Assembly (NCBI GenBank): GCA_007859745.1
Contig: SMLU01000003.1
Span: forward strand, 62,001 to 126,000
From: Phycisphaerae bacterium RAS1
GTDB taxonomy: Bacteria > Planctomycetota > Phycisphaerae > UBA1845 > Fen-1342
Length of the DNA stretch: 64,000 nt
Reading direction: 5' to 3'
Every line of letters begins with the position of its first letter. Position 1 is the stretch's first letter. The notes beneath the pieces were generated by a model. The model ran no database searches. It saw only the letters and a program-made list of their open reading frames with translations, and was not told the origin of the DNA. The position numbers and the translations under genes were made by a program. Positions 7,313-35,725 of the stretch are shown one piece after another.

Positions 7313-10042
7313 TTATACCGTGGCCGTCGCGTGCTCTCGCCGCACGAACGCGTACCCATCCCCATTCACATCCATCTCAATCGAATCGCCCGCCGCAAAC
7401 TCGCCCGCCAGGATGCGCTTGGCCAGCAAGTTCTCCACCTGCTGCTGAATCAGCCGCTTCAGCGGCCGGGCGCCGTAGACCGGGTCGTAGCCGTCGGCCG
7501 CCAGGCGGTCCTTGGCGGCGTCGCTGATTCGCAGCGTCATCTCGCGCGCCGCCAGCCGCTGCTGCAAATAGCGCACCTGCAAATCCACGATTTGCCGCAG
7601 GTGCTGGCGGCCGAGGCGGTGGAAGATCACCACCTCGTCGATGCGGTTCAGAAACTCAGGGCGAAAGTGCTTCTTCAGCTCCTCCTTCACGCGGAGTTCG
7701 ATTTCAAGGTCGTCGGCGACCGCATCGGCACGGGCTTCGTCGCCCTCGTGCGGCCGACTCGGAGGTCGGCCGCTACGCGCGTCTCTGTTCCCTGTTCCCT
7801 GTTCTCTGTTCCCTCGATCCCTTGATCCCTCCCCCATCGCCGCGATGTACTCACTGCCGATATTGCTCGTCATGACGACGATTGCATTGCGGAAATCCAC
7901 CGTCCGCCCGTGTCCGTCCGTCAGGCGCCCGTCGTCCAGCACCTGCAACAGCACGTTGAACACGTCGCGATGGGCTTTCTCGATCTCGTCCAGCAAGATC
8001 ACGCTGTAGGGCCGGCGATGCACCGCCTCCGTCAGGCGCCCGCCCTCTTCGTAGCCGACGTATCCCGGCGGCGCGCCGATCAGCCGGGCGACGGAGTGCT
8101 GCTCCATGAACTCGCTCATGTCGATCCGCACGAAGGCCGAGTCATCATCGAACAGGAATGCGGCCAGCGCTTTGCACAGCTCCGTCTTGCCCACGCCCGT
8201 CGGCCCGAGAAACAGGAACGAGCCGATCGGCCGGTTCGGATCGGACAGGCCCGCGCGCGAGCGGCGCACCGCGTCCGACACGGCCCGCACGGCATCGGTC
8301 TGCCCGACGACGCGCTCGCTGAGCCGGTCCTCCATCTTCATCAGCTTCTCGCGCTCGCCTTCGAGCATGCGCGAGACCGGAACGCCGGTCCATTTGCTCA
8401 CGACCTCGGCGATTTCCTCGGCCGTCACCTCCTCGCGCAGCAGCCCGCCGCCGGCGGCGTGAAGCTGCGTCAGTTTCTGCTCGCGCTCGCGAAGCTGCTT
8501 CTCGAGCGCCGGAAGCTCGCCGAAGCGGATGCGGGCGGCGGCTTCGAGGTTGCCGCGACGCTGCATTTCGTCCAGCTCGGTTTGCTTGGCGGCAAGCTCG
8601 ACCTTGATCGCCTTGATCGCGTCGATCGCCCCCTTTTCGTTCTGCCATTGAGCGGTGAGCCGGCCATCCTGCTCTTTCAGTTCGGCCAATTCACGCTGCA
8701 CCAGCTCAAGCTGCTTGCGGCTGGCGTCGTCCTTCTCCTTCTTGAGCGCCTCGCGCTCGATCTCAAGCTGCATGATCCGGCGGCGCAGGACGTCCAATTC
8801 CGCGGGAAGGGAGTCGTTCTCGATGCGCAGGCGGCTGGCGGCCTCGTCGATCAGATCGATCGCCTTGTCGGGAAGGTGGCGATCAGCGATGTAGCGGTGC
8901 GACAGCGTCGCCGCGGCCACCAGAGCCGAATCCTGAATGCGTACGCCATGATGGGCGTCGTAGCGGGCCTTCAAGCCGCGGAGAATGGCGATCGTGTCTT
9001 CGACGCTCGGCTGGCCGACGTAGATCGGCTGAAATCGCCGCTCGAGCGCCTTGTCCTTCTCCAGGTTCTTGCGGTATTCGTCGAGCGTGGTCGCGCCAAT
9101 GCAGCGCAGCTCGCCGCGGGCGAGCGCCGGCTTGAGCAGGTTGCCCGCGTCGGGCGAACCCTCGGCTTTTCCCGCGCCGACAATCGTGTGCAGCTCGTCG
9201 ATGAACAGGATCACCTGCCCGTTCGAATCGACGACGGCCTTCACCACCGCCTTGAGCCGCTCTTCGAACTCGCCGCGATACTTCGCGCCCGCGATCAACG
9301 CGCCCATGTCGAGCGCGATGAGCTTCTTGTCCTTGAGCGCACCGGGTACGTCGCCGGCCAAAATTCGCTGCGCCAGCCCTTCGACGATCGCCGTCTTGCC
9401 GACGCCCGCTTCGCCAATCAGCACCGGGTTGTTCTTGGTCCGCCGCGCGAGCACCTGCATGCAGCGGCGGATTTCCTCGTCGCGGCCGATGACGGGGTCG
9501 AGCTTGCCCTGCCGGGCAGCTTCGACCAGGTCGCGGCCGTAGCGCTGCAAGGCCTGATACGTGTCTTCGGGGTTCTGTGTTGTGACGCTCTGATTCCCGC
9601 GGATGTCGCGCAGCGCCGCAAGAATGTCGTCGCGCCGGGCCGCGTTGACGCTCAGGACTTCCTTGGCCGTGCTCTTCACCTCCGCCAGCGCCAAGAGCAG
9701 ATGCTCCGTGCTGACGTACTGGTCCTTCATGCGGTCGGCTTCCTTGCCGGCCTGCTGAAGCACCTCCCCAAGTTCGCGGCTGGCCGAGAGCGACGCCCCG
9801 GTCACTTTCGGCAGCCTGCCCAGCTCCGACGCAACCATGCCCCGCAACTGCCCGACGGGTACGCCGATTTTTTCGAGCAGTGGCACGATGATGCCGCCCT
9901 CGCCGTTGCCCGCCCCGCCGCTGGTGATGAGCGCGTCGAGCAGGTGCAGCGGCGTGACCTCGGGATGCCCGAGCGAAGACGCCCGCTGCTGGGCGGCCTG
10001 AATGGCCTCGGCGGACTTGACGGTCAGACGATCCGGGTTCAT
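7313..10042 (-). CDS. clpB: ATP-dependent disaggregase ClpB with extra linker
   Basis: The 909-residue protein has the full ClpB order: N-terminal repeat domain ([18 protein letters not shown]), first AAA with Walker [14 protein letters not shown], a middle coiled coil (about 410-540), second AAA with [12 protein letters not shown], and the C-terminal small domain. With DnaK/DnaJ/GrpE it extracts polypeptides from aggregates. It is roughly 40-50 residues longer than usual because of an Arg/Gly/Asn-rich insert between [11 protein letters not shown] and the [15 protein letters not shown] segment, encoded by a GGGAACAG-type repeat (about 7715-7850). The start at MNPDRL is chosen by homology. Confidence 0.95.
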
Positions 10043-10227
10043 GGCTGCACTGCCTCCGGACGACTGGTTGGCAATTCCCGCGCCGCGCCCAAAATCCGCC
10101 CCGCGGCATGAAAACCGCCGCCCGTGCGACTTCCCGCCTGTCAGTCTGACAGCCGTGGCAGGCAGACGTCGACGCGCCACGCCGCGGAGGAGACCGACTA
10201 AGCGATCGAGGCCACGCGGCCGGGGAC

Positions 10228-10260
10228 GTCGACCCGCCGCTTGGCGCGGCGGGTTCGGAC
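10228..10260. repeat. REPIN-like half element (family 1), copy 4
   Basis: Only the right half is present, CCGCCGCTTGGCGCGGCGG followed by GTTCGGAC; no left partner is seen upstream. It sits in the 400-bp divergent gap 10043-10444 between clpB and the next gene, which otherwise shows no gene. A CIRCE element (TTAGCACTC inverted repeat) is not seen upstream of clpB. Confidence 0.8.
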
Positions 10261-10444
10261 AAATATGCCCGCTGGGCGGCCTTTCCGATCGCGCCGAGCC
10301 TGTCAACATCCGTGGGCACACGCCACCCGCGCCATCCGTTCGGAACGAATTGAACCTCGAGCGGAGAATCGGCAGAATAGTCACTACTGCCGCGACGACG
10401 CGCGGTCGCCGCCGCGAGCACGAGTTCCGGTCAGGGGTCGCGTC

Positions 10445-10927
10445 GTGCTCAAAATCTTCGCCACGCTCGCGTCTTTCGTCATGTTCGCCGCGGTGCTCTG
10501 GTTCATGACCAAGGACATGAAACCCGCCAGCGAGCGCGACGTGATGATCGGCGCCGGCTTCGGCGGGGTCTCGAACGGCGTGATCGTCATGCACCTGGCC
10601 ATCCCGGCGGCGATGTTTAACGCCGACCCGCCGAAGATGACCGAGAGCGGCGCCCAGCAGTGGGACGATTGGATCAAGGCGAAATTCGAGCTTCGCGACA
10701 ACGCCGGCAAGCCGCTCGCCTGGCGCCGGCGCGGCGCCAGCGACATCGTCGACGGCGTGCACGGCAGCCTGGCGGAGTGGTACCTGGAAGCCCAGCTCAA
10801 GCCGGGCGAGAAGTACCAGTTTGACTTCGTGTCGAACATCGCCACCGGCCGGCGCTACCGCGACGTGTTCACCCCGCCGTCGGACAAGTGCATGCAGACG
10901 CTGGCGCTCAAGCCGCTGAAGAAGTAG
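10445..10927 (+). CDS. Hypothetical membrane-anchored protein
   Basis: A 160-residue protein starting at GTG 10445, preceded by AGGGGTC. It has one N-terminal transmembrane segment ([21 protein letters not shown]) and a soluble domain ending [14 protein letters not shown] Gly-rich segment ([20 protein letters not shown]) may be part of the fold. I do not recognise a family. It is transcribed away from clpB. Confidence 0.55.
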
Positions 10928-10982
10928 AAGTTATTCCGTAAGCGCCGTTTCGATCCGAGTGGCACGCGCGGCAGGCAAATCT

Positions 10983-11082
10983 GCCCGAACCCGCCGCGCC
11001 AAGCGGCGGGTCGACGTCCCCGACCGGTGAGGCGCCGCTCGCTCAAGACCGTCAACCCGCCGCTTGGCGCGGCGGGTTCGGA
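10983..11082. repeat. REPIN-like paired palindrome (family 1), copy 5
   Basis: Left half 10983-11016 and inverted right half 11051-11082, with a 34-bp spacer containing GGCGCCGCTCGCT. It lies in the convergent gap 10928-11117; a short direct duplication (CTTCTTTGATCAGG) follows at 11096-11122. Confidence 0.9.
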
Positions 11083-11117
11083 AAAGCGGCCGGGCTTCTT
11101 TGATCAGGCTTCTTTGA

Positions 11118-12341
11118 TCAGGTCTTCCAGAAGTAGAACCACGCACCGCCCCACGCATTCACCAGCACCGCGACGACGATCAGGATCTTCTGAGCCGCGT
11201 TGACCCACCCGCGCAGCGCCGACGCAATCAGCAGCATTGTGGGGACGACAAAGTCCAGGCTGAACCGGTATCCGAACTGTTTCCAGCCGGTGTTGTAATA
11301 GAGCATCAGCGGAACCAGCAGCAGCAGCAGCGCCACCCACGCACCCAGGACGAGCGGCCCACGGCTTCGAAGCGTCGCGGCGAGGTAGACGACCGGCGGC
11401 GTCGTGAGCAGCAGGCTCATTCCCAGCGGATCGGGAACGTACATGTGCAATTTCGGATCCCACGCCGGCAGCGCCAGCAGCATGGCCCAGAGATTTCGTG
11501 CGACAAAATGCGGGTGAAACTGGCCATACTGATTCAGATCGCCGATGACTTCCGGCCCGACGTGCTGACGCGCATAGCCGAAGTCGAGCGGGTCGCCGAA
11601 GCGCGCGGCGTTGTAGGCCAGGAGAACCAGCGCGGCGGCGGCCATCGGCGACAGGCTGGCGGCGATCCACGCCGCGCCGGTATTCCTGGCGCCGCGCGAG
11701 AGACCGTAAAGCAGCGGCCAGGTCAGCGCGATGTGAGGGCGGGCGAGCATCCCCAGGGCCAGAAACGCTCCGCACATCGCCGGGTGTTTGCCCGCTGCAG
11801 CGGAGCACGCGGCGGCAGCGGCGCCGCAGACGGTGAAGATATGGGCGATGTACCAGACGGTGCCGTCAACCGACACGTACCAATGCACCGTGCCCGCGGC
11901 GAAGAGGACCGCCAACCACGCGCGCCCGCCGGGGCCAAGGTCAATCAGGCCGCGCCGCCGGCAAACACCCAGCAGGGACCACAGCAGCGCGACATTCGCC
12001 GCCGCGAAGACTACCGAGAACGCCACGGTATTCACGCGGAAGCCCAGCACGCGCCAGGGAAGCATGACCAGCGCAGGCAGCGGCGGAAACGGCACGTACC
12101 AGAGGCCGCCCGCCGGCGTCAGGTCGACGGGATTGTCGCGCGCGGGGATGTCGAGGCGGCCCTTGAGAAATGCATCCGCGAGCTCGTCAAAATAGGAGAG
12201 GTTGGGAGTTCCCGTCCGGCCCGCAACCCAGGCCGACGATCCGTAGAAGAGCAGCGCGATGATGAAGACGGTGATCGCGCCATCGGCCCAGCCGATCGGC
12301 GTGAGCGGCGTGGCGCCGTGCGTTGTCGTGCGGTCGCTCAT
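11118..12341 (-). CDS. Polytopic membrane protein, GT-C glycosyltransferase-like
   Basis: The 407-residue protein has about ten hydrophobic helices. An early periplasmic-type loop holds NLSYFDELADAFLKGRLDI, similar in layout to the first loop of GT39/GT-C dolichol-phosphate-sugar mannosyltransferase-like enzymes, where an acidic residue near the first helix is catalytic. Later segments include LARPHIALTWPLLYGLSRG and YNTGWKQFGYRFSLDF. A role in sugar transfer to lipid or protein is inferred from topology only. Confidence 0.55.
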   Translation of the reverse strand: MSDRTTTHGATPLTPIGWADGAITVFIIALLFYGSSAWVAGRTGTPNLSYFDELADAFLKGRLDIPARDNPVDLTPAGGLWYVPFPPLPALVMLPWRVLGFRVNTVAFSVVFAAANVALLWSLLGVCRRRGLIDLGPGGRAWLAVLFAAGTVHWYVSVDGTVWYIAHIFTVCGAAAAACSAAAGKHPAMCGAFLALGMLARPHIALTWPLLYGLSRGARNTGAAWIAASLSPMAAAALVLLAYNAARFGDPLDFGYARQHVGPEVIGDLNQYGQFHPHFVARNLWAMLLALPAWDPKLHMYVPDPLGMSLLLTTPPVVYLAATLRSRGPLVLGAWVALLLLLVPLMLYYNTGWKQFGYRFSLDFVVPTMLLIASALRGWVNAAQKILIVVAVLVNAWGGAWFYFWKT

Positions 12342-12371
12342 AGAGTCGAAGCGTAATCGGACTGCCGGCTT

Positions 12372-12472
12372 TTCCGAACCCGCCGCGCCAAGCGGCGGGT
12401 CGATGATCGTACCCGAGCGGCGCCACACCGGCGGGGGGCGTCACCCCGCCGCTTGGCGCGGCGGGTTCGGAC
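12372..12472. repeat. REPIN-like paired palindrome (family 1), copy 6
   Basis: Left half 12372-12404 and inverted right half 12440-12472. The spacer (GAGCGGCGCC) matches the spacer core of other copies in the opposite orientation. It occupies the divergent promoter gap between the GT-C-like gene and the aldehyde dehydrogenase. Confidence 0.9.
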
Positions 12473-12574
12473 AGAAATGCCCGGCGAGCCTGCCAAATAG
12501 GGAGTCACACACGCTTGGGCGCGCAGCCTGGCCGCGCCGCTTGACCGAGCGGCCGGCCGCCGCACAATGGCGAC

Positions 12575-25085: not shown

Positions 25086-25259
25086 GCGATTTCAGCGCCG
25101 CACGTGGAGGGTGGCATGGCTGCGGCGATTGGCAGCCATGCTCTTTGACTACAAAACGGGACTCGGCGGGCGCCTCGATTTGCGCGGCACTCGATTGATG
25201 GTATCGCGCAAGAGGCGAAGACATGCTCGCCAAAGGCCGCGAGCGTGCCACCGAAGAAA

Positions 25260-25330
25260 AGCAGCGTCCGGCACGCTAGTGCGCGGACGCCGCAAGAGTG
25301 GAGGCGGGGGGAGTCGAACCCCCGTCCCGA
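25260..25330. repeat. Left attachment site (71-bp direct repeat)
   Basis: Identical over 71 bp to 34302-34372. It contains 30 bp of the tmRNA 3' end (T-arm and acceptor strand, minus sense) and the GC hairpin GCGTCCG...CGGACGC, which on the minus strand is followed by TGCTTTTC. Confidence 0.92.
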
Positions 25331-25580
25331 TCAAACCAGCGAAGCTGTAACCGCGATATCTGACAACGCTTTAGCGAATGCACCGAAGTCGGCTGAGGCG
25401 GGGTGTTGTACTCCCCGTTGCACTCCAAACCCGAAAACGGCGACGGAAGCAGCCGAGACGCGACCTGCGGAGCCGAGCGACCCGGAGCTTGCCGCGATCG
25501 TGGCGGCGTGGCCGGCACTGCCGGCGGCGATCCGGGCAGGCGTGCTTGCGCTGGTGCGTACCGCCGGCGCATCGGCATGA
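25331..25580 (+). pseudogene. Detached 3' segment of the element's integrase gene
   Basis: Frame 25245-25580 reads through the left repeat as SSVRHASARTPQEW... and continues DQTSEAVTAISDNA... to a stop at 25580, ending DPELAAIVAAWPALP and AAIRAGVLALV. The integrase frame reads the right repeat in the same phase. In an excised circle the two join exactly (1370 + 250 nt = 540 codons with stop). The segment has no start of its own, so it is a silent 3' part while the element is integrated. It also carries GTTGTACTCCCC units like those in the integrase at 34184. Confidence 0.6.
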
Positions 25581-25672
25581 CGCTGAAAGGGGCGGAGGTG
25601 GCTCGCGCGATCGAATGGCGCGGCTCTTGGCGCGGTTTTTGGGCGGTTTGGAAACGGAGCGACGCCGAGTGA
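25577..25672 (+). CDS. Small ORF overlapping its neighbours
   Basis: A 31-residue frame (MTLKGAEVARAIEWRGSWRGFW...) whose ATG overlaps the upstream stop (ATGA) and whose stop overlaps the next start (GTGA). The paired overlaps argue that it is translated. No function is recognised. Confidence 0.4.
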   Translation: MTLKGAEVARAIEWRGSWRGFWAVWKRSDAE

Positions 25673-26091
25673 GCGACACGACGAGCGACGGCCGCGAGCT
25701 TCGCCGCGGCACCGGCGGGCGCTTCACTCCGGGAACGGCCGGCGGACCGGGCCGCCCCGCCGGCGAGAGCCGGGCGACGCGGCTCGCCGATGCGTTCCTG
25801 TCGGCGCTGGATCACGCCGGCGGCGAGCAGTACATCCGCGACTTCGCCCGCGACCAGCCCGGCGACTTTCTGCGGATCGTCGCGAGGATGCTGCCGGCCG
25901 CGGTGGACCTTTCTGTGCCGAGTGCCGGGAATGCCCCATCGGTGCTTTTTGTGCCGGACGATGCCACGGCGGATACGGAATGGCGAAGTAACCCGGCCGC
26001 GGCGATCAAGTTCATCATCATTGAACCCGGCGAGACTCGGGCGCTGCCGGACGCAAACGACGCCACCCACGCGATGCCGGGCGCTTTCTGA
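25669..26091 (+). CDS. DUF5681-like small protein of mobile elements
   Basis: The 140-residue product starts at GTG 25669. It has the Gly/Pro-rich segment GGRFTPGTAGGPGRPAGE, the kind of motif (GxFxxGxSGNPxGRPxG) found at the start of DUF5681 proteins, which often sit near phage packaging genes. It is followed by LADAFLSALDHAGGEQYIRDFARDQPGDFLRIVARMLPAAVDLS, also DUF5681-like. The molecular role is unknown. It is the third gene in an overlapping chain that begins with the integrase 3' segment. Confidence 0.65.
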   Translation: MSDTTSDGRELRRGTGGRFTPGTAGGPGRPAGESRATRLADAFLSALDHAGGEQYIRDFARDQPGDFLRIVARMLPAAVDLSVPSAGNAPSVLFVPDDATADTEWRSNPAAAIKFIIIEPGETRALPDANDATHAMPGAF

Positions 26092-26909
26092 GTACTTTCT
26101 GAGCGGTTTCGGCGGGCGACGCCGCGGCGTCCGCTGCCGGGCACGCTGCGGTTCGCCGTCGCCCCGGCAGCCCGGCACCCCGCGGTTCCGGTGCCATCGC
26201 CCGCGACTTCCCTTCTGCTGTCTTGTCCAAGGCTCCCTACATCGCGATGGTCGCCCCCTGACGGCGACGACGGAAGCGACGACGGCCGGCGGTCGGTTTT
26301 CGGCGGGCTTTCGACCCGCTTTCGGACGGGAATCTGGATCGGTCGTGAGAGCGTGAATCCGCGGGGCGGCGATTTTGTGCCCACCCCACCCCGTCAATCC
26401 AAAGCCGGTTACTTGTACATAACCCCGTCTGCAGTCGCCGGATTCGAGCGCTCCGGCCCCCTTTGAGCTATGAACGCGGGCGAAAACCGGCTGACGGCGC
26501 GCTTGTTCTGTAAAATCCTGCTCGACAGGTGCGACCGGCGACGAACGCTTGCGAATGAACCTGCTTGACGGCGCATCGGCTCCGCGAGAATCCGCGCGGG
26601 TGAGCTTTCGCGCTGCGTATTATTGCCTTGTTTTTGGCTCCGCACGCGAAACGGTCATTCTCGCGCGCGAGGGGAGCGCGGAAATCAGGCGAAAGTGCGC
26701 GTAGGCGCGCTCCGGCTGGTGCGAGCGAGAGGGGTGCTGGCCCGCGAAAACTCACCACCGTTCGACGAAAAAAGTTCGGCGGGTCGTGCGCGAAGGCAGC
26801 AGCGGCGGAAGATGTCTGCGCCTCAAAAACGCCGAAAACACCCCATCCGTCTCTTTTCACGCGGCACAAAATCGATCGCACGCGAAATCGAACTGGGTAC
26901 GATCATCGC
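26092..26909. other. 818-bp stretch without a supported gene
   Basis: Short open frames exist on both strands, but none has a good start, a known motif or a neighbour-like composition. The segment is patchy: GC-rich to about 26390, then an AT-richer part with GTATTATTGCCTTG near 26615-26630. It may be a deletion scar in the element's cargo or a long regulatory region for the downstream operon. Confidence 0.4.
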
Positions 26910-27362
26910 ATGGTTTCCGAGCGCAAACTTGCGGCGAATCGGCGGAACTGGGCGATGCGGCGCGGGCTGACGAAGGACGGCCGGCGGCGGTTGCGCGAGG
27001 CGGCGCTGCGCAACCGACCTTGGACGTACGCGACCGGGCCGCGGACGGCGGCGGGCAAAGCCCGCAGCAGCGGGAACGCGACGAAGTCCGGCGAGCACAC
27101 GGCCGAGAGCAAAGCGGCGCGGCGACAGGCGCGGGAAACGGTGACGGCGTGCATGGACGGGCTGCGCTTCCTCGGCGGGTTGTGCGACTGCATGGGCCGA
27201 TCCAGCCGGCTCGCGGCGCTCGCAGCGACGCTGTCTGACGAGTCGCCGCGGAGCCTGCGACGGCTGGACCGGGCGGCGGCGCGCCTGGACGCGCTGGCCG
27301 ACGATACGCTCGCCGTACTGGGTCGATTTCGTGAGTCCGCTGTGCGGTTGGTCAGCCGATAG
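26910..27362 (+). CDS. Hypothetical basic protein with TGPRTAAGKARSS motif
   Basis: The 150-residue protein starts MVSERKLAANRRNW and contains TGPRTAAGKARSSGNATKSGEH. This is a variant of an ANRxNA...TGPRTxxGKARSSxNAxxHG motif that I know from small uncharacterised planctomycete and proteobacterial proteins. The N-terminal half is strongly basic and may bind nucleic acid; the C-terminal half is Ala/Leu-rich and helical. It lies 99 bp upstream of the restriction gene. Confidence 0.55.
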   Translation: MVSERKLAANRRNWAMRRGLTKDGRRRLREAALRNRPWTYATGPRTAAGKARSSGNATKSGEHTAESKAARRQARETVTACMDGLRFLGGLCDCMGRSSRLAALAATLSDESPRSLRRLDRAAARLDALADDTLAVLGRFRESAVRLVSR

Positions 27363-27461
27363 CGACGAAGCCCGGATTGTGCCCCCCCGCGCACGGCGTA
27401 GAATGCTACCCGTCGCAAATCGGGCACCGACTACGCGAGGGACTCCGCGGGACGGGGCAGC

Positions 27462-30400
27462 ATGGCTCAGGTCGTCATCGACAATCCGGTCATCAACTCG
27501 CCGTTCGCCGAACCGGAGCGGCACTTTCGGTTCACGGACGAAGGCATTTCGAACCAGATCGACGCGGGCAGGCGACAGAGCGAGTATTTCGTCCCGATCG
27601 CGGCACCCAAGAAAAAGGGCAAGCAGCGGTACTTTGACACCGAGTGGACAAAAGACCGCATCGAGCCGAACCGGCTGGTCAACCAGATTCGCCCACGGAT
27701 CAAGCAGTGGCGCGAAGGGGGATATGTTGGCGTGACCCCCACGACGGGCCGGCTGCTGGCGTACTGGACCGACCCGGCACGAGACAAGAGGCTCTTCTTC
27801 TGCCAAATCGAAGCGCTTGAAACGGCGATTTATGTCGCGGAAGTCGCGAAGAAATATGGCGACGCCTGGATCGACAACGACCTGCGCGACGCGAACGACA
27901 TGTCGAACCCGGGATTGCCACGTACCGCGTTCAAAATGGCAACGGGCGCGGGCAAGACGGTCGTCATGGCAATGCTGATCGCGTGGCAGGCGCTGAACAA
28001 ACTCGCCAATCCGCAAGATGCGCGATTCTCGGATACGTTCCTGATCGTCACGCCCGGCATCACGATTCGCGACCGCTTGCGAGTGCTGCTGCCGAATGAT
28101 CCGCAGAATTACTACCGGCAACGCGACATCATCTCGGCCGAGCTGCTGGAGAGGCTGCAACGCGCCAAGATCGTCATCAAAGACTTCCACACGTTCTTGC
28201 TGCGCGAGGAATCCGACGCGGCGAAGCTGACGAAGCTGGTCGCCGGCCAGCTTCATACCGGCGTGAACAAGGAATCGCCCGAGCGAATGGTCCGCCGCGC
28301 CTGCCGCGAACTGGGCAACAAGAAGAACATCATCGTCATTAACGACGAAGCCCATCATTGCTACCGCCGCAAGCCGGACGGCGATGACGTGAAGCTCACC
28401 GGCGACGAACGGAAAGAGGCCGAAAAACGCAACGCCGACGCGCGCGTGTGGATATCCGGAATCGAGGCGTTCAAGGCGAAGATCGGCGTCAAGGCGATTT
28501 ACGACCTGTCGGCGACGCCGTTCTTCCTGCGCGGCTCGGGCTGGCCGGAAGGCACGCTATTTCAGTGGGTCGTGTCCGATTTCTCGCTCATCGACGCAAT
28601 CGAGGCCGGCATCGTGAAGGTGCCGCGAGTTCCCGTCTCCGATGATTCCATGACGGGCGACCAGCCGACCTACCGAGACATCTGGCTTCGCATTCGCGAC
28701 GAACTTCCCAAAAAGGGCCGCGGGACGGAAGCCGTCGGCGATGAGCCGAAGCTGCCGCGAGAACTTGAAGGCGCGCTGCGCAGCCTCTACGGCAACTATG
28801 AAAAATACTACCGGCTCTGGGAGTCGAACCCGGTCGCACGCACTAACACGACTCCGCCGGTGTTCATTGTCGTGTGCAACAATACGAACGTGTCGAAGCT
28901 CGTATTCGACTACATCGCGGGATGGGAAAAACAGGTTCGCGGACAGACGGTCGTGCAAGCCGGGGCGCTGGCGATCTTTCGCAACGACGACGGCCACGGC
29001 GGCTGGTTGCAACGGCCCAACTCGATCCTGGTGGACAGCGAGCAACTCGAATCCGGCGAAGCGATGAGCGATGAATTCAAGAAGCTCGCCGCGCGCGAGA
29101 TCGACGAATTCAAGGCGGAGTACCGCATGCGCTTTCCCGGCGCAGACACCGAAAAGCTCACTGACGAAGACCTGCTTCGCGAAGTGATGAACACCGTCGG
29201 AAAACCGGGAAAACTGGGCGAGCACGTCAAGTGCGTCGTCAGCGTGTCGATGCTCACCGAAGGCTGGGACGCCAACACTGTCACCCACGTGCTGGGAGTC
29301 CGCGCCTTCGGCACGCAGCTTCTCTGCGAGCAGGTCGTCGGGCGGGCGCTGCGGCGCATGAGCTACGCACCCGAGCCGCAATCCGTCCGCGCGCAGGGCC
29401 GCACGCACGAGTTCATCGGCTTTCCGGCTGAATACGCCGAAGTCTACGGCGTGCCTTTCTCGTTCCTGCCGTGCGGCGGATCGGCCAATGACCCGAAGCC
29501 GCAGCCGATTCCGACGCGCGTCCGGGCGCTGGAAGAGCGCATTGCGTGTGAAATCACGTTCCCGCGGCTCGCCGGATACCGCTTCGACATCGGCACGGAA
29601 CGTCTTTCGGCGCGCTTCGACGAAGGCTCGCGGCTCGCCCTCAGCACGCAGGATGTGCCGACACGGACGGAGGTGGACCCGATCGTCGGGCAGCGCAGCG
29701 TTCACCGGCTGGACGACCTTCGCAACGAGCGAGAGAACACGGTCGCATTCGTGATCGCCCGGCGGACGCTGGAACGCTATTTCCGCGACGGCGACGGCAA
29801 CGATAAGCCGTGGCTCTTTCCGCAACTGCTCGCGATTTCCAAGCGCTGGCTGGCCGAGTGCGTGACGCTCAAGGACAACGCTTTCCTGCAAATGCTGCTG
29901 CTTCACGAGCTGACGCACGACGCCGCCGATCGCGTCTACAGAGCAATCCCACCGGCTAGCGGCGGCGCGGCAACGCTGAAACCGATCCTGCGTCCCTACG
30001 ACACGCTGGGCACGACCCGCCACGTGGATTTCGACACGACGCGGCCCACGTACAGCACGCGGGCGGACAAATGCCACGTCTCGCACGTCGTCGCCGATAC
30101 GGAGTCGTGGGAGCAAAAGCTCGCGCAGACGCTCGAAAACATGCCGCAAGTGCTGCGCTACGTGAAGAATCAAAACCTGGGCTTCACGATTCCGTACGTT
30201 CTGGACGGGCAGGAGCGGCAGTATCACCCGGACTTCATTGCCGTGCTGGACGACGGCCACGGAAGCGCCAACCCGCTGCAACTCATCATCGAAGTGACCG
30301 GCGAGCACAAAAAGGACAAGGCCGCGAAAGTCTCGACGGCACGGACGCTGTGGGCGCCGGCGGTGAACAGCCACGGCGGATTCGGGCGCTGGGCGTTTGT

Positions 30401-30485
30401 CGAAATCGCCGATCCGTGGGACGCGGAGAAGTTAATTGGGGCAGCGCTCGGCGCGGCTGTTGACCGACAGGAACATTCACGATGA
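27462..30485 (+). CDS. Type III-like restriction enzyme (DEAH helicase-nuclease, BPTD_3080-like)
   Basis: The 1007-residue protein is a superfamily 2 translocase: Walker A ATGAGKTV (160-167) and Walker B/motif II NDEAHH (D295-E296-A297-H298). Motif VI-like QVVGRALRRMSY lies near 620-640. A C-terminal PD-(D/E)xK-like nuclease follows, with HPDF (922-925) and LIIEVTGEHK (about 938-948). It resembles the res subunit of type III systems, specifically the BPTD_3080 group. It would cut unmodified foreign DNA with a partner methyltransferase. The Fic gene starts inside its last four bases. Confidence 0.88.
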   Translation: MAQVVIDNPVINSPFAEPERHFRFTDEGISNQIDAGRRQSEYFVPIAAPKKKGKQRYFDTEWTKDRIEPNRLVNQIRPRIKQWREGGYVGVTPTTGRLLAYWTDPARDKRLFFCQIEALETAIYVAEVAKKYGDAWIDNDLRDANDMSNPGLPRTAFKMATGAGKTVVMAMLIAWQALNKLANPQDARFSDTFLIVTPGITIRDRLRVLLPNDPQNYYRQRDIISAELLERLQRAKIVIKDFHTFLLREESDAAKLTKLVAGQLHTGVNKESPERMVRRACRELGNKKNIIVINDEAHHCYRRKPDGDDVKLTGDERKEAEKRNADARVWISGIEAFKAKIGVKAIYDLSATPFFLRGSGWPEGTLFQWVVSDFSLIDAIEAGIVKVPRVPVSDDSMTGDQPTYRDIWLRIRDELPKKGRGTEAVGDEPKLPRELEGALRSLYGNYEKYYRLWESNPVARTNTTPPVFIVVCNNTNVSKLVFDYIAGWEKQVRGQTVVQAGALAIFRNDDGHGGWLQRPNSILVDSEQLESGEAMSDEFKKLAAREIDEFKAEYRMRFPGADTEKLTDEDLLREVMNTVGKPGKLGEHVKCVVSVSMLTEGWDANTVTHVLGVRAFGTQLLCEQVVGRALRRMSYAPEPQSVRAQGRTHEFIGFPAEYAEVYGVPFSFLPCGGSANDPKPQPIPTRVRALEERIACEITFPRLAGYRFDIGTERLSARFDEGSRLALSTQDVPTRTEVDPIVGQRSVHRLDDLRNERENTVAFVIARRTLERYFRDGDGNDKPWLFPQLLAISKRWLAECVTLKDNAFLQMLLLHELTHDAADRVYRAIPPASGGAATLKPILRPYDTLGTTRHVDFDTTRPTYSTRADKCHVSHVVADTESWEQKLAQTLENMPQVLRYVKNQNLGFTIPYVLDGQERQYHPDFIAVLDDGHGSANPLQLIIEVTGEHKKDKAAKVSTARTLWAPAVNSHGGFGRWAFVEIADPWDAEKLIGAALGAAVDRQEHSR

Positions 30486-31594
30486 CGCCGGTTCAATATC
30501 ATTCCGGGAAGTTCCCGCCGGCGACGCTCGACTTGGCGCGCCTGTTCCCGCTCATCGGACCCGCCAGCGCCGAATTGGCGCGCTTTGCCGGAACCTTGTC
30601 CGCCATTCCGAATGCGGAAGTGCTGCTGTCGCCTCTGACGACGCAGGAAGCGGTCCTGTCCAGCAAGATTGAAGGCACGCAGGCAACGATCGGCGACGTG
30701 CTGGAGTTCGAAGCCGGCAAGGAGCCGATCAGCGAGAAGAAAGAGGCGGACATTCTCGAGGTGCTCAACTACCGCGCCGCCATGCGCGGCGCTGTCGAGC
30801 AAATGTCCAAGTTGCCGCTTTCTCAGCGGCTGGTTCGCGACGCGCACCGGCGATTGATGCAGGGCGTGCGCGGACAGAATAAGACGCCCGGCGATTACCG
30901 CCGCACGCCCAACTGGATCGGCCCGCCGAATCGCCCGATTGAGGAGGCACGGTTCATTCCCCCGCCCGCGGACCGCGTGCCCGACGCGATGTCGGCCTGG
31001 GAGCGTTATCTTCACGCGGACGCGCCCGATCGGCTCGTGCAGCTCGCGATCCTGCACGCCGAGTTCGAGGCCATCCACCCGTTTCTGGACGGCAACGGCC
31101 GGCTCGGCCGGCTGATCGTGCCGCTGTTCCTTGTTGATAAGAAGCTGCTTTCAGGGCCGACGTTCTACATCAGCGCCTATTTCGAGGCCCACCGCGACGA
31201 GTATTACGAGCGCTTGCTGGCCGTCTCGCGAGACGACGACTGGACCGGCTGGTGTCTCTATTTTCTGACCGCGGTCATCGAGCAGGCGCGCGACAACACC
31301 GCCAAGGCCGGCGCGATCCTCAATCTGTATCGCCAGAAAGGCGACTGGCTCGCGCAAACCACCGGCTCGCGCCACGCCGTCCGTGCGATCGACTGGTTCT
31401 TCAATCGGCCGATCTTCAAGACATCCGACTTCGTCGATTCGGCCGACGTTCCGAAGCGCACCGCCCATCGTATCCTGACCATCGCGCGCGAGAAGCGGCT
31501 GCTCCGGACGCTCCGGGCGGCGAGCGGCCGCCGGCCGGCAGTCCTTTGTTTCTCGGAGCTTATGAACATCGCGGAAGGAAGACGTGTTTTTTGA
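30482..31594 (+). CDS. Fic family AMP-transferase
   Basis: The 370-residue protein has the intact catalytic motif HPFLDGNGRLGR (199-210) and an N-terminal inhibitory motif SSKIEG (60-65, fitting S/TxxxEG/N). An N-terminal Fic/DOC dimer-type domain and a C-terminal winged-helix-like region (about 300-360) are also present. Fic proteins transfer AMP from ATP to Ser, Thr or Tyr of target proteins, and the inhibitory helix keeps them off. The ATGA overlap with the restriction gene ties the two together and suggests a defence or control role, which is inference. Confidence 0.92.
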   Translation: MTPVQYHSGKFPPATLDLARLFPLIGPASAELARFAGTLSAIPNAEVLLSPLTTQEAVLSSKIEGTQATIGDVLEFEAGKEPISEKKEADILEVLNYRAAMRGAVEQMSKLPLSQRLVRDAHRRLMQGVRGQNKTPGDYRRTPNWIGPPNRPIEEARFIPPPADRVPDAMSAWERYLHADAPDRLVQLAILHAEFEAIHPFLDGNGRLGRLIVPLFLVDKKLLSGPTFYISAYFEAHRDEYYERLLAVSRDDDWTGWCLYFLTAVIEQARDNTAKAGAILNLYRQKGDWLAQTTGSRHAVRAIDWFFNRPIFKTSDFVDSADVPKRTAHRILTIAREKRLLRTLRAASGRRPAVLCFSELMNIAEGRRVF

Positions 31595-31680
31595 GTGCCA
31601 CCGGCGCATGACAACGCGATTTGTGTGCCATTTTTGTAATAAAGTGGGACACAAAATGGCTTGCCGCGCAGCGGTGGCAC
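31595..31680. repeat. Nested inverted repeat between fic and the methyltransferase
   Basis: Outer arms GTGCCACCGGCGC (31595-31607) and GCGCAGCGGTGGCAC (31666-31680) enclose GCCATTTTTGT and ACAAAATGGC. The 86-bp MITE-like unit starts right at the fic stop and separates the operon genes. Confidence 0.75.
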
Positions 31681-31751
31681 ACAACGTGACGGCGGTTCGC
31701 ATAACCGCTGGAAACGGCGCGACTTCCGAATGAGTGGGAGTGTGTCGGATA

Positions 31752-32504
31752 ATGGCCAAGAAACGATCATCGAAAGCCGACAGTGCCAAGGGCAAAGGCG
31801 GCGGCCCGCGCGGCGGCAAGCCCGTTGACGCCATCCGCCACAAGGACAAGCGGCCCAACATCCCGACCGAAGAGCTGCGCGACTTCGTGGCCGACGACGA
31901 GAACGCCCCGAAGACGATGCTCTATCCGCGCGACCCGTCGCTGGACCCGCAGCTTGTCTGGAAGGGCAAGGACGAGCAGGACCGCGCCGACCTGGCCGTC
32001 CCGGTCGTGCCGATCTACATCCAGGAAAAGATTCACCCGCAGGCGCTGGTCGAAGACGTGCGGGCGAGCGCCGCGGCCGCTGCCGCCGAGCCGCGCCCGT
32101 CAGGAAGTGATCCGTCCGAGCCGCGCCCGTCAGGAAGCGGGACCGGCGCGCAACTGAGCCTCTTCGCCGATTTCAACGGGCTGGACGACTTCGACAAGAA
32201 AGTCGAGTTCTACGCGCACGAGCAGCACTGGTCCAACCGCATGATCCTGGGCGATTCGCTGCTGGTCATGACCAGCCTGGCCGAGAAAGAAGGGCTGAAG
32301 GGCAAGGTCCAGACGATCTACTTCGACCCGCCCTACGGCATCAAGTTCGGCTCGAACTGGCAGGTGAGCACGCGCAAGCGCGACGTGAAGGACGGCAAGC
32401 CCGAAGACATGACCCGCCAGCCGGAGCAGATCAAGGCGTTCCGGGATACGTATCAGCTTGGGATTCACTCCTACCTGGCGTATCAACTGGGGGCGTCGCG
32501 CTGA
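31752..32504 (+). pseudogene. Truncated type III-like DNA adenine methyltransferase (mod)
   Basis: The 250-residue remnant keeps the N-terminal part of DPPY methyltransferases. It has a basic start, NRMILGDSLLVMTSLA (target for cofactor/DNA binding) and catalytic DPPYG (192-196). It continues to FRDTYQLGIHSYLAYQL and then stops after GASR, where intact family members continue for several hundred residues, including the SAM-binding FxGxG part. The break is abrupt at about 32490. A duplicated EPRPSGS segment (32086-32145) is repeat-derived. Without a full Mod the restriction enzyme is probably inactive or uses another methylase. Confidence 0.8.
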
Positions 32505-32755
32505 CGAGGAACCCGCCCGACCTGCCGACAGCTCCCGGCTCCCGCCACGGCGGCGCGACGTACGAAAGCGCGGCCGGCTACGTTGGGCCGGCGGACCTGC
32601 CGATCGACTGGCGCGAATGGTATGAGGAGCGCGCCGCGATCCGCGAGTACGACGGCGGCGAGTTGCGCGAGCACGCCGAAGCTGGAGCGTTGGTCGAAAC
32701 GCTGGCGGCGATGCGGCAGGCCGGAGAATTCGGAATTCCGCCGCGCGGGGCTTGA
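32501..32755 (+). CDS. Small WREWYEER protein of the element, start uncertain
   Basis: Frame 32501-32755 encodes about 84 residues: PADLPIDWREWYEERAAIREYDGGELREHAEAGALVETLAAM and the end FGIPPRGA. I recall DWREWYEERAAIREYDGG-type small proteins beside integrases in planctomycete elements; the function is unknown. No ATG or GTG is available. A CTG at 32501 overlaps the methyltransferase stop (CTGA). The 5' end may instead have been lost in the deletion that cut the methyltransferase. Confidence 0.5.
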   Translation: MTRNPPDLPTAPGSRHGGATYESAAGYVGPADLPIDWREWYEERAAIREYDGGELREHAEAGALVETLAAMRQAGEFGIPPRGA

Positions 32756-32780
32756 CACCGACATCGACACGAGTAACACT
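32752..32780 (+). promoter_or_regulatory. Candidate sigma-70-type promoter for the HTH-integrase pair
   Basis: TTGACA (32752-32757) is followed after 16 bp by TAACACT (32774-32780), just ahead of the HTH gene start at 32787. The -35 box overlaps the stop of the WREWYEER gene. The short leader (under 10 bases) leaves little room for a Shine-Dalgarno sequence. Confidence 0.45.
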
Positions 32781-32786
32781 TATTAC

Positions 32787-32999
32787 ATGACGATGACCGA
32801 GACAATCAAGAGAGCGTTTCGCAAGAGCGGGCTGACGCTGTACGGCGCGGCGGCGGCGGCGGGAATCAAACGACCGAGCTTGTCCCGGTTCATTCGCGGC
32901 AAGCAATCCCTACGGCTCGATTGCGCCGACAAGCTCGTCGCGATACTGGGGCTGGAGCTGCGCCCGACGCGGCGCACTGCGGGAAGAGAAGGTAGGTGA
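32787..32999 (+). CDS. Small Xre-like helix-turn-helix protein
   Basis: The 70-residue protein (MTMTETIKRAFRKSGLTLYGAAAAAGIKRPSLSRFIRGKQSLRLD..., given in part) is a single HTH domain: KSGLTLYGAAAAAGI and KRPSLSRFIRGK form the two helices, then LDCADKLVAILGLEL. It is placed directly before the integrase (4 bp gap), where excisionase or repressor genes usually sit. It probably controls integrase expression or directs excision. Confidence 0.75.
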   Translation: MTMTETIKRAFRKSGLTLYGAAAAAGIKRPSLSRFIRGKQSLRLDCADKLVAILGLELRPTRRTAGREGR

Positions 33000-33002
33000 C
33001 TT

Positions 33003-34535
33003 GTGGCGTTCGTGTTCACACCAACAGTGACGCGCGTTCGTAGTGGCCGCAAAATCAAGCGGCGTTCGCGGTTCTACTGGGCGTCGCTTTCGGACGCCGC
33101 GGGTGAGCCGGTGCGGAAGGCGTTGAAACTCCCGAACGGGCAGCCGGTGAGCGACCGCGAGACGGCAGAGCAAGTGCTACGGCAGCTAATCCGTCGCACG
33201 GAGAGGAGGGCCGTCGGGCTGATTGACCGCGCGGTAGAGTCGGCCGGGCTGCCGCTGCGCGTCGCGCTCGCTCGATTCGCTCGTTACATGCGTCAACGCA
33301 AGCTGTCCTACGTGCATGTTCGCAAGACGCTGACGCGCGTGAAGTGGATTGCCGACACGGCTGGCATCATCCGGCTGGCGGACGTGAACGCGCCGAACGT
33401 CTCAAAGTCGCTCGCGGTGTTGGCGGGTCGCAACCGTGCGCCGAAAACGTACAACGATTACCGCGCGGCGATGTTCGGATTCTGTCGCTGGGCGGTTTCT
33501 CCTGGCGAGCTTCTGGACCGCAACCCCATGACGGACGTGACGCGCCGAGACATAGACGGCGACATCCGCAAGGTTCGTAGGGCGCTGACGCCGCAAGAGG
33601 CGGGGCGGCTGCTGGCGGCTGCCGGGCCGCGGGCGCTTTGGTACGAAACGGCGATGTTGACCGGACTACGCTGCGGAGAAATGGCGCGGCTCGAATGGCG
33701 CGACGTAGACCTTGTGGCGAGTCGGCCGGGGCTGACGCTGAGAGCGGAAGCGACGAAAGCGCGTCGGGCCGATATCATCCCGCTGAAAGCGTCTCTCGCG
33801 ACGAAGTTGCGAGAGCTACGACCGGCGAACACGAAACCGACGGATCGGGTGTTCCCGCGGACGCCGAAGCGCGAGACGTTTCGGGCCGATTGCGACCGGG
33901 CGGGTGTTTCGTGGAAGGCGGATGACCGTGGGCGGACGTTGGACCGGCACTCGTTGCGAACAACGTTCGTGAGCTGGCTCGGCGCGGCAGGCGTTGACCC
34001 GCAGGCGGCGCGGCAGCTTGCACGGCATACCGACATCCGGTTGACCATGCAGACCTACACCGACCCGCGCTTGATTAACACGGCGGCGGCGGTGGAGCAT
34101 TTGCCGGACGTGGGTTCGGCGCGGCCGTTGCCGGACGCCGAGCCGTCTCGGAAGCTGGGCACAAACGACGCTGAGGCTGTTGTACTCCCCGTTGTACTCC
34201 CCGTTGCATTCCCCGTTGTATTGCACGACCGGGAACGGTTGCGCACGGACGCGCAACGCGACAATGCGAATGAAGCGCAAGTGTCTGTCAGTGCAAAAAA
34301 TAGCAGCGTCCGGCACGCTAGTGCGCGGACGCCGCAAGAGTGGAGGCGGGGGGAGTCGAACCCCCGTCCCGAAGCATTTCAGCCTGGGCCTCTACGTGTG
34401 TGTCCGGCGGATTTGATCTCGGCTCACCGCAGACCCACCGGCCGGTCATCGGATCGCCCAGCCCCGCTGCATCTCATCCGCACGCCACGGGACGGGAGCG
34501 TACGAACCAGCCTGCTGTTTCGACCGTCCGCCTAG
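33003..34535 (+). CDS. int: Tyrosine integrase whose frame crosses the attachment site
   Basis: The 510-residue integrated-state product starts at GTG 33003. It has an SAM-like core-binding domain (about 85-180) and a complete tyrosine recombinase active site: Arg223 (TGLRCGE), Lys252, His316 and Arg319 (HSLR), His342 (RHTD) and nucleophile Tyr352 (QTYTD). From residue 434 the frame reads the 71-bp repeat, including WRRGESNPRP (the antisense tmRNA T-arm), and ends on antisense tmRNA sequence at 34535. In the excised circle the same frame would end on the sequence now at 25331-25580. The catalytic part is unaffected either way. Confidence 0.88.
   Translation: MAFVFTPTVTRVRSGRKIKRRSRFYWASLSDAAGEPVRKALKLPNGQPVSDRETAEQVLRQLIRRTERRAVGLIDRAVESAGLPLRVALARFARYMRQRKLSYVHVRKTLTRVKWIADTAGIIRLADVNAPNVSKSLAVLAGRNRAPKTYNDYRAAMFGFCRWAVSPGELLDRNPMTDVTRRDIDGDIRKVRRALTPQEAGRLLAAAGPRALWYETAMLTGLRCGEMARLEWRDVDLVASRPGLTLRAEATKARRADIIPLKASLATKLRELRPANTKPTDRVFPRTPKRETFRADCDRAGVSWKADDRGRTLDRHSLRTTFVSWLGAAGVDPQAARQLARHTDIRLTMQTYTDPRLINTAAAVEHLPDVGSARPLPDAEPSRKLGTNDAEAVVLPVVLPVAFPVVLHDRERLRTDAQRDNANEAQVSVSAKNSSVRHASARTPQEWRRGESNPRPEAFQPGPLRVCPADLISAHRRPTGRSSDRPAPLHLIRTPRDGSVRTSLLFRPSA
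34184..34225 (+). repeat. 12-bp tandem repeat in the integrase gene
   Basis: GTTGTACTCCCC occurs three to four times with small changes and encodes VVLPVVLPVAFPVVL. One and a half similar units recur at 25404-25425 in the element's left end. Confidence 0.75.
34294..34331 (-). terminator. Intrinsic terminator of the tmRNA gene
   Basis: On the minus strand, GCGTCCG-cGCAC-tagc-GTGC-CGGACGC forms an 11-bp stem just past the mature tmRNA end and is followed by TGCTATTTTTTGC. The hairpin is inside the att repeat; the T run comes from element DNA. The chromosomal copy at 25260 ends TGCTTTTC instead. Confidence 0.7.
34302..34372. repeat. Right attachment site (71-bp direct repeat)
   Basis: Perfect copy of 25260-25330. 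The last 32 bases (34341-34372) are the 3' end of the tmRNA gene; the rest is the tmRNA terminator hairpin. Integration therefore rebuilds both the tmRNA end and its terminator. Confidence 0.92.
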
Positions 34536-34689
34536 CAGGCGTTGGCGGCGGTCGGACTACCTTACTTAGGCAGCCATGCGATAGCCGGAATCGGCATCTA
34601 AAAGTCTGCCAGGTGTTTAACGAGGCCTCCTAGCAACCTCGACACGCCACCCAGACCTCAACCTGCCCGGTCGAAAGCCTGTCGCCCCC
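34341..34689 (-). ncRNA. ssrA: tmRNA (transfer-messenger RNA)
   Basis: A 349-nt tmRNA rescues stalled ribosomes. The 5' end GGGGGCG pairs with the 3' CGCCTCC in a 7-bp acceptor stem (one G-U pair). The T-arm is GGGGG-TTCGACT-CCCCC with discriminator A; CCA is not encoded. The tag frame follows TTTTAGAT and reads GCC GAT TCC GGC TAT CGC ATG GCT GCC TAA (34595-34566), giving ADSGYRMAA. This is a protease tag ending MAA rather than the commoner LAA. The gene is the integration target of the mobile element. Confidence 0.93.
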
Positions 34690-35563: not shown

Positions 35564-35628
35564 AGGTTTTCCGGGGCTGAGCCGCACCGGCAACGGGCGG
35601 AGCCACATCATGCCGCCTGATGACGTCT

Positions 35629-35710
35629 GGGGGAGCATCGGCGTCCCGCCGGTGTCCGCCCCCAAAAAATCAAGAGTCGCAGCGCACCGGCGGGACGCCG
35701 ATGCTCCCCC
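35629..35710. repeat. Family 3 inverted pair (GGGAGCATCGGCGTC)
   Basis: Left arm GGGGGAGCATCGGCGTCCCG...GGTG (35629-35654) and its inverted copy (35685-35710) flank a 30-bp spacer. The same pair recurs at 51166-51249. Confidence 0.88.
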
Positions 35711-35725
35711 AAAAGAAGAGCGAAC

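Follow-up and report, generated by a model that had tools for sequence, protein, structure and literature searches.

We analyzed a stretch of 64,000 nucleotides from the genome of Phycisphaerae bacterium RAS1 (contig SMLU01000003.1, positions 62,001 to 126,000), hereafter the window, which carries an integrated element whose integrase gene seems to contain its own attachment (att) site. The element (25331..34372) measures 9,042 bp between equivalent points of two att repeats, and was recognized by this repeat pair and by a transfer-messenger RNA (tmRNA) gene at its right end. The two copies, at 25260-25330 and 34302-34372 (given on the + strand), share 71 identical nucleotides within a 77-nt match at 97%. 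The right one overlaps the 3' end of the tmRNA gene, predicted by ARAGORN at 34340..34689 on the - strand with the tag ADSGYRMAA, which is the integration target. The left one carries the final 33 nt of the tmRNA and the sequence just behind it.

The integrase open reading frame (ORF, 33003-34535, + strand) codes for 510 amino acids. It reads through the right repeat and ends within the antisense strand of the tmRNA gene, as the initial annotation had described. Its first 372 residues (33003..34118) comprise the N-terminal, core-binding and catalytic domains, as judged from the PF00589 match (residues 195-355, E=5e-16), a residue alignment and the ordered part of a structural model. Residues R223, K252, H316, R319, H342 and Y352 are invariant across 4 aligned integrase sequences, and we take them to be the catalytic ones. 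Since they and the PF00589 match lie wholly upstream of the att core, the earlier claim that the catalytic domain stays whole and that only the tail is exchanged agrees with the alignment. This domain is that of λ-type integrases, and Foldseek relatives of the model include λ integrase (E=2e-8), together with Brujita (E=9e-10) and XerA (E=2e-8). The TM-scores, 0.22-0.27 by query length, are low, and a large share of the model is disordered. The model itself, predicted for the integrated form from 4 sequences (mean predicted local distance difference test, pLDDT, of 61), consists of an N-terminal sheet, a helical domain and the catalytic domain, followed by disorder from about residue 373 to 510 (pLDDT 22-43). 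This low-confidence part covers the stretch antisense to the tmRNA, i.e. the replacement C-terminus of the integrated form (34373..34535, + strand, from the ORF list).

At the other end of the element, a frame leaves the left repeat in the phase of the integrase and runs to a stop at 25580. It is made of a tail-side linker (25331..25478, + strand) without in-frame start codon, and of a conserved C-terminal tail (25479..25580, + strand) comprising the motif DPELAAIVAAWPALPAAIRAGVLALVRTA, the last residues and the stop, and supported by a tail profile, by selection and by a weak two-helix model. Joining the element ends at the repeat (34372|25331) gives an open frame of 1,620 nt, i.e. 539 residues and a stop. 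The uninterrupted joined ORF first proposed from the window is thus recovered, and the comparisons given below place it beyond chance.

This tail is a member of a conserved family, about 29 residues long, with an invariant W and an LP. At E<=1e-8, 70 of the 114 genomes searched in the order have it, and at E<=1e-6 it occurs in at least 55 out of 294 genomes sampled throughout the phylum (24 candidates were scored per genome, so that this count is a lower bound). Among 61 genomes, that of the window and 60 relatives, a search with the catalytic part gave a match in 55 at E<=0.001, and a search with the 41 C-terminal residues of the tail predicted for the circle form gave matches in 55 of the 61 at the loose threshold of E<=0.5. 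Over the first 112 loci, an iterated tail profile gave 64 domain rows, which include a few short secondary pieces and represent 49 distinct cores. Wherever a pair was picked from a single contig, tail and integrase lie on one strand, the tail being upstream, which is the geometry expected if circularisation joins both. All four integrase ORFs of at least 490 amino acids in the genome of the window have a tail match at 7-13 kb. Other integrases of this genome (loci L001-L008) have no tRNA gene within the stretch examined, and therefore provide no control for integrases in tRNA genes (tDNA) that lack tails. The tail sequences had no notable match in Pfam, PHROG or NCBIfam (one Pfam hit, E=0.13, fell below the cut-off) and no sequence relative in the PDB (best E=1.2). 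A tail-side model, weak since it was made from a single sequence (mean pLDDT 63), places two short helices within the motif.

The ratio of non-synonymous to synonymous changes (pN/pS), computed from 33 non-overlapping pairs of tail cores out of 101 cores, with or without an integrase found, was 0.46 in the tail frame vs 1.11, 1.78, 1.10, 1.75 and 0.58 in the five other frames; the antisense frame at 0.58 presumably shares its wobble positions with the tail frame. Changes were distributed as 219/168/381 over the three codon positions, third positions accounting for 381 of 768. This pattern demonstrates protein-level selection on the predicted tail, and the left-end frame, whose conservation had been named as a check, is conserved as protein in dozens of elements. 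Between the core and the tail motif, no ATG was present in 37 of 44 elements, and none of ATG, GTG or TTG in 19 of them. Because start codons are mostly missing and selection acts at the protein level, the simplest reading is that the tail would be produced as part of the integrase.

We then compared reading frames over integrase/tail pairs, each anchored on its longest exact repeat of 12 nt or more overlapping a tRNA or tmRNA gene called by ARAGORN. The initial 18 pairs were picked from integrase and tail matches on the same contig, plus L041; among the 20 initial regions, L090-L092 were selected by integrase alone. Forty later regions were picked by eye from tail matches, for room on the contig. 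From 60 integrase/tail rows, 15 without a repeat on an ARAGORN gene were removed and one (L170B x L171) was set aside as non-cognate, leaving 44 cognate pairs, the window's included. Integrase and tail were in frame in 43 of the 44, and the frame was fully open from one to the other in 42, whereas non-cognate pairs sharing at least 16 nt were in frame in 23 of 57 cases, near one in three, with an excess that includes close relatives. For the tail-chosen pairs, which make up 22 of the 44, the counts were 21 in frame and 20 open; in four tail-chosen pairs the integrase is the next same-strand PF00589 match, 24-70 kb away. Seven further cognate pairs were counted apart (L041, L082, L088, L161, L180, L181 and L170A/L171): their repeats of 19-57 nt do not overlap an ARAGORN gene, and all seven are in frame. 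Eight rows corresponded to secondary ORFs or other recombinases (L089, three in L144, L161, two in L173, L174). In L144, the tail-type integrase is immediately preceded by three more consecutive tyrosine-recombinase ORFs (strand coordinates 9894-12564).

Target genes of the 44 pairs encode tmRNA or tRNAs that cover 14 amino acids plus selenocysteine; 39 lie antisense to the integrase and 5 sense. For the 5 latter (L081, L086, L145, L172 and L175), the core is on the sense strand of the target tRNA relative to the integrase, yet four keep their tail in frame. Six integrase/tail pairs in L093-L104 (genomes G036 and G032) lie 32-60 kb apart, in elements of phage size, and belong to the same integrase family. 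Whether related integrases stop before the repeat was a check set beforehand: those examined mostly continue into sequence of the tRNA-antisense type. The frame comparison confirms that the arrangement predicted in the window is real, and one case of a widespread arrangement.

The antisense T-loop of the tRNA offers a finer comparison, as it is read in three frames (5, 17 and 10 cases), typically giving SNP, L/F-E-P/R or RT. The five sense-strand targets were excluded; a shared T-loop could not be scored in 15 of the 47 rows, and in the 32 scorable ones the frame of the tail was in all cases that of its own integrase. Two tandem elements on one contig (L170 and L171, G291:C18) illustrate this point. 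They share a 46-nt core at a tRNA-Gly gene, which the upstream integrase reads as KRAKGLEPSTFSLEG, as does its own tail 27 kb away, and which the neighbouring integrase reads as SGRRDSNPQHSAWK, matching its own tail. Similarly, integrases directly preceding the tail of a neighbour (L154, L156, L170 and L180) are out of frame with that tail in 4 cases out of 4. Chance or spurious frames on antisense tRNA are ruled out by the comparison of cognate and non-cognate pairs and by this three-frame test. As read from the frames, these data establish that one end of the integrated element encodes the catalytic part and the other the tail, on one strand and in one frame through the respective core copies, which derive from a tRNA or tmRNA gene.

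In λ, arm-type sites, which an N-terminal domain of the integrase binds, flank the core of the attachment site. For 38 of 44 elements here, the linkers flanking the core share a match longer than expected from 100 single-base shuffles per element (p<=0.05). In the window, GTTGTACTCCCCGTTG occurs at 34179 and 34191 in the integrase-side linker (34119..34301, + strand) and once, at 25405, in the tail-side linker, each linker being a putative arm of the phage attachment site (attP). The linker repeats, GTTGTACTCCCCG among them, would be putative arm-type sites; the integrase model predicts an N-terminal sheet plus helix, and repeats lie on both sides of the core in 38/44. Because arm-like repeats flank the core on both sides, attP seems to lie inside the integrase gene.

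We consider it reasonably likely, taking these observations together, that the whole attP is placed inside the integrase (Int) gene between the catalytic domain and the helical tail, that the circle carries a single gene for a tailed Int, and that the tail, which would aid integration, is lost upon integration. We strongly infer two of the steps: in the circle, the two halves would form one gene giving full-length tailed Int, and integration would sever the tail, leaving an intact catalytic domain with an arbitrary tail encoded mostly by antisense tRNA. Less certainly, the tail may help assemble or stabilise the integrative complex, so that integration would remove its own helper, and excision might be carried out by tail-less Int, possibly assisted by a helper protein, or by tailed Int acting in trans. 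The tail is selected though it is severed once the element is integrated; its benefit should therefore lie with the circle, which has to integrate, and a role in integration, lost afterwards, is favoured. The tail thus probably favours integration, and the integration state would alter the behaviour of the integrase through the tail swap. The initial annotation had called this tail regulatory-looking; its membership in a conserved protein family is added here. A broader version, which we view as possible but rather doubtful, is that of state-sensing integrases across the phylum, in which the circle-only tail would be a built-in directionality factor. The enzyme would then serve integration in the circle and be excision-only or silent in the chromosome, att specificity being swapped freely between two fixed halves.

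Several results weigh against the proposal of a tailed circle form. One pair (L145) is out of frame, another (L187/L169) is in frame but interrupted by a stop, and the integrase and tail of L173 have no shared repeat. The 40 tail-chosen regions gave 22 pairs of the 44, four of the seven counted apart, the L173 integrase, and 13 regions with no tested cognate integrase, 7 of these 13 being truncated by a contig end and one (L166) holding a PF00589 match that the integrase profile missed. No tail was seen in L090-L092. Among the loci examined, we found neither circle-junction DNA nor an intact ORF with both integrase and tail, and none of 138 tail ORFs also holds a catalytic match (123 integrase ORFs were compared). 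Beyond the phylum, coverage consisted of viral, phage and plasmid collections and of one search among relatives. No tailed form was seen in viral contigs by exact short-peptide scans, which reach close relatives only. The tail query gave no match in the phage collection, where five records at 24-28% identity came from the other query, nor in the plasmid collection, where the other query gave two weak records; in an Aquisphaera plasmid record (L113), an integrase match is present and a tail match was not found. Finally, other proteins have the motif at their C-terminus as well, namely two protein kinases and two TOTE-type primase ORFs (L190:540-2153, L192:1544-2818, L191:1269-2711 and L064:1486-2520).

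Three ORFs of 425 to 538 amino acids with a tail match were candidates for intact integrases, but turned out to be two kinases and one TOTE-type primase. L134, considered as a contiguous form for its linker-like sequence before core and tail, was rejected as no catalytic domain was seen upstream. In L066, 59 residues of Int linker, the core and the tail follow each other in a single ORF, in a stretch with no tRNA gene; the linker is 92% identical to L038 of the same genome (190 nt at 96%). L066 is a possible relic of the joined form.

Since the motif also ends kinases and TOTE-type primases, it suggests a portable interaction module. This bears on the rival that survives best, which we nevertheless find unlikely: the joined gene would be real, with a tail that merely stabilises Int or binds a partner, a split devoid of switching role, and a placement of attP that is historical. 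A general protein-protein module would fit this view, as does a catalytic domain left intact by the split. However, the tail is lost exactly at the change of state in 17 types of target genes, so that whatever the tail does would be tied to the circle, even if switching was not what it was selected for.

Another explanation comes from mycobacteriophage BPs, where attP lies inside the repressor gene, integration changes the C-terminus of the repressor, and the longer form is described as degraded via an ssrA-like tag (PMC4557955). By analogy, a C-terminal and hydrophobic tail could destabilise the circle form of Int, which integration would stabilise. An ssrA-like degron is weakened by the position of the motif, whose end is mostly 2-28 residues ahead of the stop, and by the ends of the tail ORFs, only 1 of 45 of which finishes in AA. 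Moreover, losing a destabiliser after integration would favour excision, which would be odd for an element that settles. We hold this degron switch to be improbable. The likeness with BPs, an attP inside a gene with integration changing the C-terminus of its product, is read here from sequence alone, and the differences are that the gene is there a repressor and here a tyrosine integrase, and that our tails seem unlike the ssrA-like tag.

A small gene of its own for the tail, or an unrelated left-end frame joined in phase by coincidence, is highly improbable and refuted as far as sequence can refute it, by the excess of cognate over non-cognate pairs in frame, the full agreement over the three T-loop frames and the scarcity of start codons, even though GC-rich DNA yields long chance frames (69 ORFs of at least 80 amino acids in 14 kb), the integrated-state tail ORF can start in flanking DNA (GTG at 25245), and some ATG, GTG or TTG precedes the motif in 25/44.

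The proposed tailed circle form has parallels in known systems. The closest are the archaeal 'suicidal' (SSV-type) integrases of SSV1, pTN3 and pT26-2, in which att lies within the integrase gene and integration into a tRNA gene splits it; only the free element holds the complete gene, and the fragments that were tested are reported inactive (PMC8371274). Self-disrupting recombinases are presented as exclusively archaeal in this 2021 review (PMC8371274). The common point is an att inside the integrase frame at a tRNA gene, which here would exist in the joined form. In contrast, SSV-type genes are cut between N-terminal and catalytic parts and ours after the catalytic domain, and theirs carry PF16795 (Phage_integr_3), where only PF00589 was reported here at E<=0.01. 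Islands in tDNA with λ-type integrases, as catalogued by Islander (PMC4383910), restore the tRNA or tmRNA gene, leave a displaced fragment and keep the integrase gene beside the target. All this applies here as well, but in our case the integrase frame crosses the core and resumes at the far end of the element as a conserved tail. In ICEKp1, the int promoter and integrase expression are described as dependent on integration state (PMC13023037); integrase would depend on this state in both systems, at the level of transcription there and by a change of protein here. We found no account of the present arrangement in the open-access literature searched.

Other genes of the element in the window were also inspected. 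A helix-turn-helix (HTH) protein (32583..32999, + strand, PF01381 at E=3e-6) ends 3 nt before the start codon of the integrase and is a possible directionality factor or repressor; small HTH-like ORFs, judged by eye, adjoin several other integrases of the family too. The cargo includes a ResIII-type ORF (27462-30485), a Fic protein (30482-31594) and a short ORF without Pfam match (31734-32504), which we take, from its DPPY motif, to resemble a cut-short type III methylase. Outside the element, the window has a perfect 27-nt inverted repeat with a 30-nt spacer (35628-35711).

This bacterial family thus appears as a milder version of the self-disrupting integrase, common in one order, which spares the catalytic part. 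Comparing the two forms of the protein that a single gene would naturally yield makes for a clean test of whether the direction of integrase action can be set without a separate factor, and loss of the tail at each insertion would be a built-in marker of the free vs inserted element. The left ends of such elements would explain short 'hypothetical proteins' in annotation, and the tail can serve in practice to locate the end of an element opposite its integrase, at distances of up to tens of kilobases.

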